Below, in pieces: positions 16,420 to 63,346 of a DNA stretch of 64,000 nucleotides. Source of the DNA: Promicromonospora sukumoe. Lineage in GTDB: Bacteria; Actinomycetota; Actinomycetes; Actinomycetales; Cellulomonadaceae. The number at the start of each line of letters is the position of its first letter. Position 1 is the first letter of the stretch. A program made the translations under genes and the position numbers. The stretch spans positions 372,001 through 436,000 of the forward strand of contig NZ_JACGWV010000001.1 of assembly GCF_014137995.1 (NCBI RefSeq), in the 5' to 3' direction. Below the pieces are notes generated by a model that was given only the letters and a program-made list of their open reading frames with translations, was not told where the DNA came from and made no database searches.

Positions 16420-16467
16420 ACGCGGGCCGCCGCGTTGGAAGGGAGGCGCCGCGCTAGGGTGTGCGGC

Positions 16468-18453
16468 GTGCACTCGCCCGGAGATCCTGGCCTTGTTCCC
16501 CTGCCTGCGTCGACGCAGGTGCTGGGCGGTTCGGCGCTGCTCCGGGACGGCGCGCGGGTCCTGGCCGACCCGGCCCTGCGGCCGGCCGCTCGCTGGTGGC
16601 GGCGGGTCACGGAGGAGGCCTTCGGGATCGACCTGGTGCCGGTGACCGGCCCTTCCGACGTCGGCGCGGATGAGGGCGCCGGCGACGGTTCCGCCGGGCG
16701 GCCCGCCGACGTCGTCCTCGCGCTCGCACCCGACCTGCCCGCCGAGGGCTACCGGATCGAGGTGGACGGTGCGCCGTCGGGCGCCGTCGTACGTGTGGAG
16801 GCCGCAGACCTCGCCGGGGCCCACGCCGCGACGCAGACCCTGCGGCAGCTCGCCGGACCGTCCGCGTACCGCCGGGCGCCCGCGGACTACCGGGGCGCGA
16901 GCACGCTGCCCGCCCTGCCGGTGGTCCGTATCGAGGACCACCCGCGGTTCGCCTGGCGCGGGGTGCTGCTCGACGTCGCCCGCCACTTCCTGCCCAAGGC
17001 GGACGTGCTGCGGTTCGTCGACCTGGCCGCCGCCCACCGGCTGAACGTGCTGCAGCTCCACCTCACGGACGACCAGGGCTGGCGCGTGCAGGTGCACCGC
17101 TACCCCGAGCTGACGCGCACCGGCGCGTGGCGCCGCGAGTCCACCGTCGGCACCTGGCGCACGGGTTCGCGCGACGGCCGCCCCCACGGCGGCTTCTACA
17201 CGCAGGACGACCTGCGCGAGATCGTCGCCTACGCCCGCGACCGCGGGATCACCGTGGTGCCCGAGATCGACGTGCCCGGCCACGTCGAGGCCGCCGTCGC
17301 CGCCTACCCGGAGCTCGGCACACGCAAGGACCGCAGCGGGGTGCGCACCACCTGGGGCATCAGCCAGGACGTGCTGGACCCGTCCGAGGGGTCGCTCGCG
17401 TTCTTCCGGCACGTGCTGGACGAGGTCCTGGAGATCTTCGACGCGCCGTGGATCGGCCTCGGCGGCGACGAGGTGCCGCCCACCCTCTGGCGCGAGTCGC
17501 CGGCCATCGTGGAGCGCGCCCGGTCGCTGGGCCTCTTCGACGCGGCGGGCGCCGTCGACGTCGCGCAGCTCCACGGCTGGTTCGTCGCCCGCCTCGCCGA
17601 GCACGTGTCCGCCGCGGGCCGCCGCGCCGTCGTCTGGGACGAGGCGGTCTCGCCGATGCTGCCGCGCGACGTCATCGTCACGTCCTGGCGCGGGTACGCC
17701 CAGGGTGCTGCCGCGCTCGCGGCCGGGTACGACGTCGTCATGGCGCCCGAGCAGGTGCTCTACCTGGACCACCGGGCCGGCGAGCACCCGGCGGAGCCGA
17801 TCCCGGTCGGCTTCCTGCGCACGGTCGAGGACGTCTACTCGTTCGATCCTCTCCCACCCTCGTTGAGTGCGGGCTTTTCGCTGGGTGAGCAGGCCTCGGA
17901 GGGGCAGATATCCAGCACTCAACGAAAGCAGGGGCGGCTGCTCGGCGCGCAGGCCCAGGTGTGGACCGAGCACCTGGACAGCGCCCGGCGTGTCGACTAC
18001 GCGGCGTTCCCGCGGCTGGCCGCGTTCGCCGAGGTCGCCTGGTCGCCGCGGGGCGAACGGGAGCCCGGGTCGGCGGCGTCGAAGGAGTTCCTGGAGCGTC
18101 TGGAGCGGCGTCACCTCCCGCGGCTCGACGCGTACGGCGTGGAGTACCGGCCGCTCGCCGGCCCGCACCCCTGGCAGACGCGACCCGGCGTCCAGGGCTA
18201 CCCGCGGGACCTGGCGGCAGAGACCGCCGTCGGCGGCTGGGCGGGGCTCGGCGGCTGGCGGGAGGACGGCGGCGTCGAGAACCTGCCGGAGCCCGCGCCG
18301 GAAGAGGATTCGGCGGGGGAGCGGACGCCGGCGAGCGCGGGTACCTCGGCGGGGGAGCGGACGCCGGAGACCGAGCGGGCCTCGAAGGACACCCGGACCT
18401 CGGAGGACGCGCAGGTCCTGGAAGGTGAGCGGACCCCGGAGGGGGACGCGTGA
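16468..18453 (+). CDS. Cytosolic GH20 beta-N-acetylhexosaminidase
   Basis: A 661-residue glycosidase that releases terminal beta-GlcNAc/GalNAc. An N-terminal GH20b-like domain precedes the barrel (from about 150: FAWRGVLLDVARHFLP, LHLTDDQGWR). The catalytic Asp334-Glu335 pair is in LGGDEVP; later come VWDEAV and AQVWTEH. No signal peptide is seen, so it should act in the cytosol on imported sugars. GTG 16468 follows TAGGGT (16455-16460) by 7 nt. Two oddities: a palindromic element is read in frame at about residues 465-486, and the last 50 residues are a Glu/Thr tail with a 36-nt direct repeat (18310 and 18346, SAGERTP). The stop overlaps the deacylase start (GTGA). Confidence 0.9.
   Translation: MHSPGDPGLVPLPASTQVLGGSALLRDGARVLADPALRPAARWWRRVTEEAFGIDLVPVTGPSDVGADEGAGDGSAGRPADVVLALAPDLPAEGYRIEVDGAPSGAVVRVEAADLAGAHAATQTLRQLAGPSAYRRAPADYRGASTLPALPVVRIEDHPRFAWRGVLLDVARHFLPKADVLRFVDLAAAHRLNVLQLHLTDDQGWRVQVHRYPELTRTGAWRRESTVGTWRTGSRDGRPHGGFYTQDDLREIVAYARDRGITVVPEIDVPGHVEAAVAAYPELGTRKDRSGVRTTWGISQDVLDPSEGSLAFFRHVLDEVLEIFDAPWIGLGGDEVPPTLWRESPAIVERARSLGLFDAAGAVDVAQLHGWFVARLAEHVSAAGRRAVVWDEAVSPMLPRDVIVTSWRGYAQGAAALAAGYDVVMAPEQVLYLDHRAGEHPAEPIPVGFLRTVEDVYSFDPLPPSLSAGFSLGEQASEGQISSTQRKQGRLLGAQAQVWTEHLDSARRVDYAAFPRLAAFAEVAWSPRGEREPGSAASKEFLERLERRHLPRLDAYGVEYRPLAGPHPWQTRPGVQGYPRDLAAETAVGGWAGLGGWREDGGVENLPEPAPEEDSAGERTPASAGTSAGERTPETERASKDTRTSEDAQVLEGERTPEGDA
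17861..17924. repeat. Palindrome family A copy inside the GH20 gene
   Basis: CGTTGAGTGC (17861-17870) and its partner GCACTCAACG (17915-17924) frame a 64-bp segment. Its ends match the intergenic elements at 59862 and 60952, including the CCACCC flank on the left. The interior has decayed and is translated as part of GH20 between the conserved YSFDP and LLGAQ motifs. See findings. Confidence 0.8.
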
Positions 18454-22002: not shown

Positions 22003-22013
22003 CCTGACACGCA

Positions 22014-22060
22014 CCACGGCCCTGACTCACCGCCCGGGAGGCGGCGAGTCAGGGCCGTGG
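22014..22060. terminator. Bidirectional terminator hairpin (F)
   Basis: CCACGGCCCTGACTC (22014-22028) pairs exactly with 22046-22060, with an inner CCGCC/GGCGG helix. It separates the convergent RidA (ends 22002) and DUF4349 (ends 22082) genes. Confidence 0.85.
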
Positions 22061-22081
22061 TCGTGCCAGGGGCGGGAAGAG

Positions 22082-39484: not shown

Positions 39485-39507
39485 GCCGCGCTCGCTCGCG
39501 CGCGGCG

Positions 39508-39558
39508 ACCATGCATCTGCTGCCAGAACTGGACTCGGTCTGGCAGCAGGTGCATGGT
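39508..39558. repeat. Convergent-gene inverted repeat (E)
   Basis: ACCATGCATCTGCTGCCAGA (39508-39527) pairs with 39539-39558 with one G-U position and an 11-nt loop. It separates convergent rdgB (ends 39484) and DUF3054 (ends 39580) and is a likely two-way terminator. Confidence 0.8.
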
Positions 39559-39579
39559 CTCGGTCGGACCAGGCGCGCG

Positions 39580-57865: not shown

Positions 57866-58204
57866 ATGAGTGACGTACAGGCCGCAGGGCCTGCCGAAAC
57901 CGATTACCAACGCGTCGAGCGTTCGGACGAGTTCCAGAGCCTGCGCAGGGCGTTCCGGAACTTCGTCTTCCCGATGACGGCGCTGTTCCTCGTCTGGTAC
58001 CTCCTGTACGCGCTGATGAGCACGTACGCCCACGAGTTCATGAGCATCCGTGTGGCCGGCACCATCACGGTCGGGCTGGTCTTCGGGCTGCTGCAGTTCG
58101 TGTCCACGTTCGTCATCACCACGCTCTACGCGCGGTGGGCCAACGACAAATTCGACGCCCGGGCGCAGGCCCTGCGCGAGGAGATCGAGGGGGGCGAGCT
58201 GTGA
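57866..58204 (+). CDS. DUF485 membrane protein
   Basis: A 112-residue protein with two helices (about 35-55, FPMTALFLVWYLLYALM; and 68-92, TVGLVFGLLQFVSTFVITTLY) and the DUF485 motif SDEFQSLRRAFRNFVFP. It always accompanies ActP-type symporters and may act as a small subunit. TGGAGG precedes the ATG. Its stop overlaps the actP start (GTGA). Confidence 0.92.
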   Translation: MSDVQAAGPAETDYQRVERSDEFQSLRRAFRNFVFPMTALFLVWYLLYALMSTYAHEFMSIRVAGTITVGLVFGLLQFVSTFVITTLYARWANDKFDARAQALREEIEGGEL

Positions 58205-59850
58205 ACGGGACCGTCATGGCAGCGGCGGCCACGAACGTCGGCAACATCTGGGTCAACATCGGCATCTTCGCGGCGTTCGTCGTGGTCACGCTCGTCGTCG
58301 TCTTCCGGGTGTCCCGGCAAAACAAAAGCGCCGCGGACTTCTACGCCGGCGGCCGCAACTTCACCGGCACGCAGAACGGCACCGCCATCGCGGGCGACTA
58401 CCTGTCCGCCGCGAGCTTCCTGGGCATCGCGGGCGCCATCGCCGTCAACGGGTACGACGGCTTCCTCTACTCCATCGGCTTCCTCGTGGCGTGGCTCGTC
58501 GCGCTGCTCCTGGTCGCCGAGCTGCTGCGCAACACCGGCAAGTTCACGATGGCCGACGTGCTGTCGTTCCGGCTCAAGCAGCGCCCGATCCGGCTCGCGG
58601 CGGCGCTGTCCACGCTCGCCGTCGTCTTCTTCTACCTGCTGGCGCAGATGGCCGGCGCGGGCGGCCTCGTCGCGCTCCTGCTCGGCATCACCGACAAGGC
58701 CGGCCAGGGCCTGGTCATCGCTGTCGTCGGCGCGCTGATGATCCTGTACGTGCTGGTGGGCGGCATGAAGGGCACCACCTGGGTGCAGATCATCAAGGCG
58801 ACGCTGCTCATCGCGGGCGCCGGCGCCATGACCATCTGGGTGCTCGCGCGCTTCGGCTTCAACCTGTCGGCCGTCATGCAGGAGGCCGTCAACATGGCCG
58901 GCGAGAACGGCGAGGCGATCCTCGAGCCGGGCCTGCAGTACGGGGCGACGGCGTTGTCGCAGCTCGACTTCCTGTCGCTCGCGCTCGCCCTGGTGCTCGG
59001 TACCGCGGGCCTGCCGCACGTGCTGATGCGCTTCTACACGGTGCCGTCGGCCAAGGAGGCCCGCAAGTCCGTGGTCGTGGCGATCTGGCTGATCGGCATC
59101 TTCTACCTGTTCACGCTGGTGCTCGGGTACGGCGCGGGCGCGCTGGTTGGCCCCGAGACGATCCTCGCGGCACCCGGCGGGCAGAACTCGGCGGCACCGC
59201 TGCTCGCGTTCGAGCTCGGCGGCGAGATCCTGCTCGGCATCATCGCGGCGGTCGCCTTCGCGACGATCCTCGCGGTCGTCGCCGGGCTCACGATCACGGC
59301 GGCGGCGAGCTTCTCGCACGACATCTACGCCTCGATCATCAAGAAGGGGCAGGTCTCGCCCGACGGCGAGGTCCGGGTCGCCCGCTGGACGGTGGTCGTG
59401 ATCGGCATCATCGCGATCATCGGCGGCATCTTCGCCAACGGGCAGAACATCGCGTTCCTCGTGGCGCTGGCGTTCTGCGTCGCGGCGTCGGCCAACCTGC
59501 CGACGATCATCTACTCGCTGTTCTGGAAGCGGTTCAACACGTCCGGCGCGCTGTGGAGCATCTACGGCGGCCTCGTCTCGACCGTCGTGCTGATCATCTT
59601 CTCGCCGGTCGTCTCCGGGAAGCCCGCGGACCCGGTCACCGGGCTCAGCAAGTCGATGATCAGCGACCCGTCGATCGACTTCCACTGGTTCCCGCTCGAC
59701 AACCCGGGCATCGTGACGATCCCGCTCGCGTTCGTGCTCGGCATCGTCGGCACCTACCTGAGCAAGGAGCGGTCGCACCCGGAGAAGTACGCCGAGATGG
59801 AGGTTCGCTCCCTCACGGGCGCGGGCGCGGAGAAGGCCACCGCCCACTGA
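58201..59850 (+). CDS. actP: Cation/acetate symporter ActP
   Basis: A 549-residue sodium:solute symporter with about 13 helices. Family motifs: RNFTGTQNGTAIAGDYLSAA, GTAGLPHVLMRFYTVPSAKEAR and ITAAASFSHDIYASIIKK. It imports acetate and similar short acids for use by an acyl-CoA synthetase such as the one at 14440. GTG 58201 is coupled to DUF485. Palindrome A1 follows. Confidence 0.92.
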   Translation: MNGTVMAAAATNVGNIWVNIGIFAAFVVVTLVVVFRVSRQNKSAADFYAGGRNFTGTQNGTAIAGDYLSAASFLGIAGAIAVNGYDGFLYSIGFLVAWLVALLLVAELLRNTGKFTMADVLSFRLKQRPIRLAAALSTLAVVFFYLLAQMAGAGGLVALLLGITDKAGQGLVIAVVGALMILYVLVGGMKGTTWVQIIKATLLIAGAGAMTIWVLARFGFNLSAVMQEAVNMAGENGEAILEPGLQYGATALSQLDFLSLALALVLGTAGLPHVLMRFYTVPSAKEARKSVVVAIWLIGIFYLFTLVLGYGAGALVGPETILAAPGGQNSAAPLLAFELGGEILLGIIAAVAFATILAVVAGLTITAAASFSHDIYASIIKKGQVSPDGEVRVARWTVVVIGIIAIIGGIFANGQNIAFLVALAFCVAASANLPTIIYSLFWKRFNTSGALWSIYGGLVSTVVLIIFSPVVSGKPADPVTGLSKSMISDPSIDFHWFPLDNPGIVTIPLAFVLGIVGTYLSKERSHPEKYAEMEVRSLTGAGAEKATAH

Positions 59851-59861
59851 CCCCACCCCGT

Positions 59862-59924
59862 CGTTGAGTGCTGGGTATTCGCCCTTTCTCGTGCGCGAGA
59901 AGGGCGAATACCCAGCACTCAACG
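59862..59924. repeat. Palindrome family A, copy 1
   Basis: Arms 59862-59886 and 59900-59924 (CGTTGAGTGCTGGGTATTCG, then CCCTT) are exactly complementary; the apical part also pairs with one bulge. Flanks CCCCACCCCGT and ACGGGTGGGG extend the symmetry. It lies between convergent actP and epimerase genes, and the epimerase stop codon (59919-59921) is inside the right arm. Confidence 0.9.
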
Positions 59925-60914
59925 AATACGGGTGGGGCGGGGCGGGCGGGCGAGGGCGTCGTCCAGGGCCGGGGCGAGCGTCGGCCAGCGGAAGGCGAAG
60001 CCCGACTCGGTGAGCCGCTCGGGCAGCACCCAGCGGCTCTTGAGCACCAGCTCGGCCTCGTTGCGCAGCACCCACAGCGCCGGCTCCAGCAGCCAGCGGG
60101 GCGCCGGGACGCCGACCGGCATCCGGGTCACGCGGCGCAGCTCCGCCATGAGCGTCCGGTTGTCCACCGGGCGCGGCGCGGCGAGGTTCACCGGCCCGGA
60201 GATGTCGTCGTGCTCCTCCAGGAACCGGACGGCGCGCAGCACGTCGTCGACATGGATCCACGAGAACTTCTGCCGGCCGCCGCTGCGGTGCACCGGCACG
60301 GCGCCACCGGTCGGGTGCTCGCCGATGCCGCGGTAGCGCCGGTGCCGGAACCACCACCCGTCGAGCTGCGGCCCGCCGACGCCGAGCCGCGCCACCCGCG
60401 CGAGCATGTCCGACGCCGGGCCACCGAGCACGATCGCCATCCGCAGCGCGACCCGCCGGGTGCCGGGCAGGCGTCCCGCGAAGAGCTCGTGCTCCCAGCT
60501 CCGCGCGACGTCCACGGAGAACCCGGCGCCGAGCTCGCCGTCGTCCTCGGTCTGCGGCCGGTCGAGCGCGTACCGGTAGATCGTGGCGGTGCTCGCGTTG
60601 AGCCACACGCGCGGCGGGCGGGCCGACGTCGCGACCGCGTCGTGGAGCTGCCGGTTGGTCTCGACCCGTGACCGCAGGATCTCGTCGCGGTTCCGGTCCG
60701 TGTACCGGCAGCCCACGCTCTTGCCGGCGAGGTTGACCAGCAGGTCGGCGCCGTCGACCAGGCGCTGCACGGCGGCGACGTCGGACCAGCGGGCGTCGGG
60801 GCCGGTGCGGCCGACCCGGACGACGTCGTACCCGCGCGCGGTGAGGTCGTCGACGAGCGCCCGTCCGATGAACCCGGTCCAGCCTGCTACGACGGCCCGC
60901 CTCGCCTCGGTCAT
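59919..60914 (-). CDS. TIGR01777-type NAD-dependent epimerase/dehydratase
   Basis: A 331-residue extended SDR protein. NAD motif VVAGWTGFIGRAL replaces the usual GxTGFIG (GWTGFIG). Then VNLAGKSVGCRY and SSTATIYRYA-like VWLNASTATIYRYAL follow; the active-site Tyr is present. It ends FRWPTLAPALDDALARPP. The family (YfcH-like) has no firm function. Its last residues and stop are encoded by palindrome A1, and palindrome A2 lies just upstream, so the gene is bracketed by family-A elements. Confidence 0.85.
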   Translation of the reverse strand: MTEARRAVVAGWTGFIGRALVDDLTARGYDVVRVGRTGPDARWSDVAAVQRLVDGADLLVNLAGKSVGCRYTDRNRDEILRSRVETNRQLHDAVATSARPPRVWLNASTATIYRYALDRPQTEDDGELGAGFSVDVARSWEHELFAGRLPGTRRVALRMAIVLGGPASDMLARVARLGVGGPQLDGWWFRHRRYRGIGEHPTGGAVPVHRSGGRQKFSWIHVDDVLRAVRFLEEHDDISGPVNLAAPRPVDNRTLMAELRRVTRMPVGVPAPRWLLEPALWVLRNEAELVLKSRWVLPERLTESGFAFRWPTLAPALDDALARPPRPTRIR

Positions 60915-60951: not shown

Positions 60952-61014
60952 CGTTGAGTGCTGGGTATTCGCCCTTCCGGCGTGCGGAAAAGGGCGAATA
61001 CCCAGCACTCAACG
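60952..61014. repeat. Palindrome family A, copy 2
   Basis: Arms 60952-60976 and 60990-61014 are identical in sequence to those of copy 1; the 13-nt centre differs but keeps GTGCG. It lies between the epimerase start (60914) and the molybdoenzyme stop (61022), both on the minus strand, so it ends the molybdoenzyme transcript. Confidence 0.9.
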
Positions 61015-61021
61015 GAGCGGT

Positions 61022-63346
<2,325 letters not shown>

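Follow-up and report, generated by a model that had tools for sequence, protein, structure and literature searches.

The window analysed here, a stretch of 64,000 nucleotides from the soil actinobacterium Promicromonospora sukumoe, carries on its forward strand a GH20 beta-N-acetylhexosaminidase gene (16519..18453) that is open and intact and matches the Pfam profile PF00728 with 344.7 bits. The start is that given by a purpose-made gene caller, which served for gene context in this genome in place of the official annotation; the open reading frame list starts it at 16435. Within the coding sequence, as a preliminary description of the window had noticed, lies a 64-bp palindromic element (17861..17924, + strand) that is read in frame as SLSAGFSLGEQASEGQISSTQR. 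Its left terminal 10-mer (17861..17870, + strand) is an exact match to CGTTGAGTGC, the right terminal 10-mer (17915..17924, - strand) is exactly the inverse of CGTTGAGTGC, and CCACCC stands to the left at 17854-17859. The same ends and left flank had been seen in two intergenic elements, and the ends were confirmed there. These copies are 63 bp long, with exact ends at 59862/59924 and 60952/61014; the first (59862..59924) is located between convergent genes at 58201-59850 (+) and 59919-60914 (-), and the second (60952..61014) between tandem genes at 59919-60914 (-) and 61022-63346 (-). Both are nearly perfect palindromes. In the GH20 element, 16 of the 27 arm positions are complementary, as compared with 22-27 in most intergenic copies; hence, its interior has decayed and its 10-bp ends have been kept, as originally described.

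The window contains no exact 10-mers other than the six ends of these three elements. When one mismatch was allowed, 8 were counted against a chance mean of 5.6, which is within chance, and the weight is therefore carried by the pairing of ends and by genome-wide counts. In the P. sukumoe genome (G000; 6.51 Mb, 4 contigs), CGTTGAGTGC occurs exactly 138 times versus 4 times for the reversed control, and the ends are thus not common by chance. Among 100 end places listed in G000, 84 form pairs with a spacing of 52-54 bp, and a partner, though an imperfect one, was identified for 15 of the remaining 16. Both ends were found exact at element spacing in 66 rows, as against 0 in the control; the rows correspond to about 56 places, counted by hand, as even-length and some other copies appear on both strands. 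A chance likeness of a repetitive-looking linker to the repeat ends could be argued from the pairing of the window copy at 16 of 27 positions only. It is, however, extremely improbable given the genome-wide excess of ends and the less decayed copy in the orthologous GH20 loop of P. panici (G008), where 22 of 27 arm positions are paired.

A scan of the window for long palindromes found four and missed the decayed GH20 copy. Two further intergenic hairpins, at 22013-22061 and 39507-39559, are unlike this repeat. Rfam models at gathering scores detected tmRNA and tRNAs only in the window, and no known RNA family at the element.

At least 75 copies of the repeat, here called family A, were catalogued in the stretches of G000 selected for reading, and they measure 62-64 bp between outer ends. 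An exact 10-bp end at G000:C1:1657684 (L167), for which the listed places include no partner at the spacing of the element, stands outside this catalogue. Sixty-seven copies lie outside genes, mostly behind stop codons (38 convergent, 25 tandem, 2 divergent and 2 without a gene called on one side), and 8 within genes. Divergent gaps are avoided (2 of 65 copies, compared with 14 of 43 window gaps of at least 40 bp; p=3e-5), and the hairpins are strong, with a mean energy of -49 kcal/mol for 113 intergenic copies. Both features would suit an ordinary bidirectional transcription terminator, copies within genes then being remnants of gene fusion or readthrough. However, the pooled flanks show no T-run after the hairpin, the right flank being A/G-rich, and copies are found inside single genes (in the PHP domain of DnaE2, in TatD and in xanthine dehydrogenase, XDH) that have element-free orthologs. 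This explanation is therefore improbable, and a terminator role between genes would in any case be compatible with mobility.

The eight G000 genes that include a catalogued copy encode the GH20 enzyme, FbiC (CofGH), DnaE2, an ABC-F ATPase, a DUF2264 protein, ImuA' (NF058630), XDH and LigD. TatD, found later via a peptide search, is the ninth, and the nine host genes are mutually unrelated. Names were taken from Pfam and NCBIfam matches, those to NCBIfam being below cut-off for ABC-F, XDH, TatD and FbiC (CofGH model). The copies in DnaE2 (PHP domain), XDH, TatD and ABC-F fall within the spans of Pfam domains. Four of the nine hosts (DnaE2, L162; ImuA', L191; LigD, L200; TatD, L241) belong, by plain count, to DNA repair, mutagenesis or nuclease functions. 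Congeners add an ABC ATPase, an ABC exporter, a PASTA-type kinase and KdpB as hosts.

Seven of the eight in-gene copies in G000 share one reading frame, typically (S/P)LSAGYSP....STGQIPSTQR (the LSAG frame), and the DUF2264 copy is read in another, the VECG frame. A length of 64 bp was found in 7 of 8 in-gene copies but in 11 of the 67 others (p=1e-4). A larger set of loci from G000 and its relatives gave 147 distinct copies, of which 34 lie in genes; 32 of these 34 measure 64 bp, and the LSAG frame is used by 32 and the VECG frame by 2. As loci L202-L271 (69 copies, 22 in genes, a few from G000) were selected by a search with the LSAG-frame peptide, frame and length there are not independent evidence, and the 75-copy set of G000 alone was used for these comparisons. 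In intergenic copies, the LSAG and VECG frames are open in 85-97%, and the third contains a stop in 96-98% of strands. Since most intergenic copies are open in two frames, the repeat is inherently translatable and a special coding subfamily is unnecessary.

Two further palindromes, unrelated to family A and to one another, occupy the same gene sites in related species. The family B core, GGTCGAGCYTGTCGAGAC, has 143 exact occurrences in G000, 181 in G010, 100 in G005 and 69 in G012, and none in G006, G007 or G011; the control gave 0 in all 79 genomes. Outside the genus, the core is common in G035 (117), G020 (49) and G066 (19). In frame, family B yields the peptides LVEPVET or RVELVET-like, mostly VE(L/P)VET, in GH20, DnaE2, LigD, FbiC and another gene (L053 1942-1981, L162 3121-3165, L200 1528-1545, L335 1830-1847 and L190 2819-2890). 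Family C, with ends close to TTGTGGGCGYGATCGTTGCG, was recognised by eye in several congeners, where it occupies the sites in TatD and XDH (L352 831, L346 1837 and L348 1834); one more copy is located at L083 6624. More long near-perfect palindromes occur at L242 1423-1494, L213 1404-1475 and L246 4538-4601, two of them with GACTTCGGTCGGTTGC arms, which suggests a larger zoo of such repeats in Promicromonospora.

Eight gene sites were compared in 13 genomes, G000 and 12 congeners, including sp. AC04 (G003), P. panici and P. thailandica (G011); 97 sites were read and 7 were missing. The G000 column is filled by choice, the genes having been picked there, GH20 excepted. By rule-based classing, 33 of the 97 sites were assigned to A and a further 8 to weak or one-ended A, 4 to B and 2 to weak B, and 6 to C, which left 44 with none. 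In 200 shuffles per site, which like those for hairpin energy preserve base counts only, A and B never appeared, weak A was met in 1.1%, one-ended A in 0.1%, weak B in 0.35% and C in 1.5%; by this measure the test for C is loose, and the assignment of ImuA' of G005 to C is probably false.

Orthologous sites proved to be polymorphic: some are filled, some hold a decayed copy or one end of it, and others are empty. DnaE2 carries family A in G000, G004, G008 and G012 and a decayed copy in G003. Its flank-to-flank window comprises 59 aa in G000 versus 37 aa in G001, G007 and G011, a difference of exactly 22 codons or 66 nt, and 38-44 aa in the other element-free genomes. TatD has family A in G000, G003 and G011 and family C in G002, G005 and G008; the corresponding window is 56 aa in G000 versus 35 aa in G006, G009 and G010, the three genomes nearest to G000, where the site is empty without a scar. 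TatD of G001 (L353) retains the right terminal stretch CCAGCACTCAACG only, as if an in-frame deletion had removed most of the element. XDH is occupied by family A in G000, G004, G006 and G012, by B in G009 and G010, and by C in G005 and G008. FbiC has family A in G009 and family B in its sister G010. ImuA' is filled in G000, G006, G007 and G011 and, with more divergence, in G003, and a one-end remnant is left in G001. In a joined tree of the 13 genomes, G000 grouped with G006 (84/83) and G010 with G009 (100/98), and the two pairs formed ((G000,G006),(G010,G009)) with support of 94/96; G012 and G004 were also paired (100/99), and the rest was mostly unresolved.

Much of this pattern is accounted for by old insertion and decay, as filled sites are common to several species. 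An explanation from old insertions only, in which each copy entered an ancestor of the genus once and was then inherited, decayed or lost with no present movement, draws on such shared sites, ImuA' being an example, and on the intermediate states of decay and one-end remnants in TatD and ImuA' of G001. Against it, TatD is filled in G000 and scarlessly empty in the three nearest relatives, and one FbiC site carries A and B in sister genomes, both of which favour gain or exchange over pure inheritance. The same is indicated by two unrelated genes of G000, DnaE2 and XDH, whose copies differ at 2 of 64 bases, as compared with 9 of 64 between the XDH copies of G000 and G006. Inheritance alone is therefore possible but rather doubtful.

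At the GH20 site, family A or a decayed form of it is present in G000, G001, G002, G003 and G008, and family B in G010, with a weaker B in G009 and a still weaker B-like match in G004. The site in Antribacter gilvus carries a third palindrome, recognised by eye. A tree of GH20 alone did not join G000 to G006, G009 and G010. The preliminary description had put the loop at about 29 residues, against about 13 for the family, with roughly 16-20 added. The loop indeed has 29 residues in G000 and 12 in many other actinobacterial GH20 enzymes, and it is likewise short in the solved Arthrobacter enzyme (3RCN). The estimate of the addition did not hold in full, since the loops of six congeners without a clear element already have 16-20 residues; 22 codons entered, with a net gain of 9-13 residues over element-free congeners. 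Two explanations can be given: partial loss of the old loop, or short loops that are relics in their own right. Among 99 of 110 GH20 loci, in which some genomes occur twice, no loop lacking a related palindrome carries the residues of the G000 loop.

In an AlphaFold2 model of the enzyme, which superimposes on 3RCN with a TM-score of 0.92 (target length), the insert (residues 448-469 of the modelled piece) lies in blocks with pLDDT values of 58 and 54, compared with 85 and 94 in the flanking blocks and a mean of 86. Blocks 51-60 and 421-430 and the C-terminal end are similarly low.

A clean empty GH20 site was not found among the congeners, which is the weakest point for GH20 taken alone, and for this reason the case for mobility rests mainly on DnaE2, TatD, FbiC and XDH. 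Family A is multicopy, is located mainly behind stop codons and in frame in many unrelated genes, and varies in presence between species. The GH20 stretch is accordingly read, with good though incomplete confidence, as a decayed copy of this non-autonomous mobile palindrome. The earlier suggestion of a mobile palindrome that makes protein sequence in an actinobacterium is thus supported, and for more genes than the one noticed.

Family A is an element of approximately 63-66 bp with constant ends, CGTTGAGTGCNGG, and a covarying interior. Variation is almost absent at position 20 and at most of the outer 13 bases, and interior pairs switch between pair types. In 32 coding copies, 74 double-change cells were counted versus 36.2 after shuffling, and 83.1% of cells are paired versus 78.3% in shuffled and 34-42% in slid alignments. 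These values support upkeep of the palindrome and fall short of proof, because related rows can beat shuffles without any structure. The compensatory changes that preserve arm pairing in coding copies, and the interchange of A, B and C at the same sites, would also be expected if the hairpin itself were selected, as a pause in DNA or mRNA, for stability or as a folding aid, with palindrome families swapping at sites. Template-switch correction of imperfect palindromes is, however, a possible source of the same covariation, 44 of the 97 gene sites have no recognised palindrome, and decayed copies persist; selection of the hairpin is thus unlikely.

The left flank is rich in C and the right flank in G, coding copies included. 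The tracts were considered as an extended stem and rejected in this role, flank bases pairing near the composition expectation at most positions with little extra complementarity. Rather than a target, they may represent a feature of gene ends and linkers. Direct repeats of 4-6 bp beside the ends, sought at three offsets as a target-site duplication, were found in 0 of 113 intergenic and 0 of 34 coding copies. Right at the ends, repeats of 3 bp are present in 1 of 113 and 1 of 34 copies, and those of 2 bp in 6 of 113 and 0 of 34, respectively.

For family A as a mobile palindrome, a trans-acting enzyme would recognise the ends or the hairpin and insert the element without target duplication, possibly at the junction of a C-rich and a G-rich tract. 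The majority of insertions into genes would be purged. The survivors would be those that add a multiple of three, the 64-bp variant plus one base on each side giving 66 nt, that avoid the single frame with a built-in TGA, and that sit where a loop is tolerated, which for hosts other than GH20 is presumed. The predicted peptide would be a flexible passenger loop, and the DNA would meanwhile decay, the ends lasting longest. Between genes, the copies probably serve as hairpins at the 3' ends of mRNAs, where they may have a terminator-like role. A RAYT/Y1 transposase was rejected as the mobiliser, since PF01797 was detected, at the sensitivity tested, in 0 of the 13 genomes and in 5 of 14 control genomes; RAYT-driven REPs differ in this respect, as they need a Y1 (HUH) transposase. 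A parent insertion sequence with family A ends was not found among the 40 of 85 candidates scored, all listed own-genome BLAST matches spanning 59-64 bases.

The likeness to Rickettsia palindromic elements (RPEs) drawn in the preliminary description holds for behaviour and not for size. Like family A, RPEs are multicopy, are found between genes and in frame in unrelated genes, and comprise several families per genome. RPEs are of ~150 bp, as against 63-66 bp for family A (62-64 bp between outer ends in G000), and family A is distinguished by constant symmetric ends CGTTGAGTGC, by a GC-rich actinobacterial host and by sharing its gene sites with B and C. By analogy with published descriptions, from which the likeness is drawn, family A appears to work like RPEs, which is not a claim of membership. 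In-frame RPEs and intragenic REPs are treated in passages of PMC10969869 and in section 15 of PMC3733652. The latter (Di Nocera 2013) also describes, in its main text, intragenic REPs of the GTAG and CGTC classes, including copies in DnaE2 and a DNA ligase; the DnaE2 and ligase hosts in G000 echo these cases from other phyla. According to the same text, such REPs resemble family A in occupying convergent and tandem gaps near stop codons with some copies in genes, and family A shows this placement behind genes, rarely in divergent gaps (38/25/2). REPs are described as 20-40 bp long with a tag at one end, whereas family A lacks the one-end tag, both ends being CGTTGAGTGC or near to it in the 32 aligned coding copies. 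The main text of PMC3733652 does not contain the words Actinobacteria, Arthrobacter or Streptomyces. Bacterial MITEs are short non-autonomous inverted-repeat elements capable of in-frame fusions, as outlined in parts of the review PMC10969869; family A has terminal inverted repeats like theirs but not their target-site duplication. It likewise shares with intrinsic terminators the hairpin but not the T-run. No report of such elements from actinobacteria or Promicromonospora was among the literature matches listed, as judged by title and the start of the abstract, subscription journals being largely outside the scope of the search.

A wider interpretation, put forward tentatively, is that a small number of sites in conserved genes, including the DNA repair and mutagenesis genes DnaE2, ImuA', LigD and TatD, may be revolving doors, through which no fewer than three unrelated palindrome families pass in and out and succeed each other in frame via a shared and undescribed hairpin-inserting mechanism with no Y1 transposase and no target duplication. 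Actinobacteria would thereby renew protein loops with DNA pre-adapted in length and frames to be harmless.

To our knowledge, protein-coding palindromes have been described chiefly in Rickettsia and among proteobacterial REPs. In Promicromonospora, copies number in the dozens, close relatives carry filled, empty or decayed alleles, and three families are interchangeable. This free-living and presumably culturable system could allow direct observation of insertion, frame filtering and decay. The findings are also relevant to the repeated appearance of DnaE2 and DNA ligase genes as hosts across distant phyla, to the origin of small flexible loops and to the enzyme that mobilises the insertions.

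The ends of family A were counted on both strands in 79 genomes. Within the genus, exact ends (reversed control in brackets) were 138 (4) in G000, 118 (0) in G012, 99 (0) in G004, 71 (1) in each of G006 and G008, 55 (0) in G003, 29 (7) in G009, 27 (3) in G002, 25 (1) in G001, 12 (0) in G011, 9 (1) in G005, 5 (1) in G007 and 3 (1) in G010. Spread by plasmids or phages was rejected, as no useful match was obtained and no place in plasmid or phage records covered 80% of the element. Outside Promicromonospora, the counts were mostly near the control. Counts above it were given by G023 with 25 (4), G028 with 23 (8), G026 with 18 (5) and G041 with 14 (1). G060, from the genus of Antribacter, gave 13 (1), and both places fetched from it are full family A palindromes (L356 1001-1064 and L357 1001-1065). 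G042 and G072, which belong to one genus in another family of the order, gave 20 (3) and 22 (3), respectively; the places inspected in G042 (L358 1001-1108 and L359 1001-1044) are shorter palindromes with the same ends, CGTTGAGTGC, adjoining in pairs.
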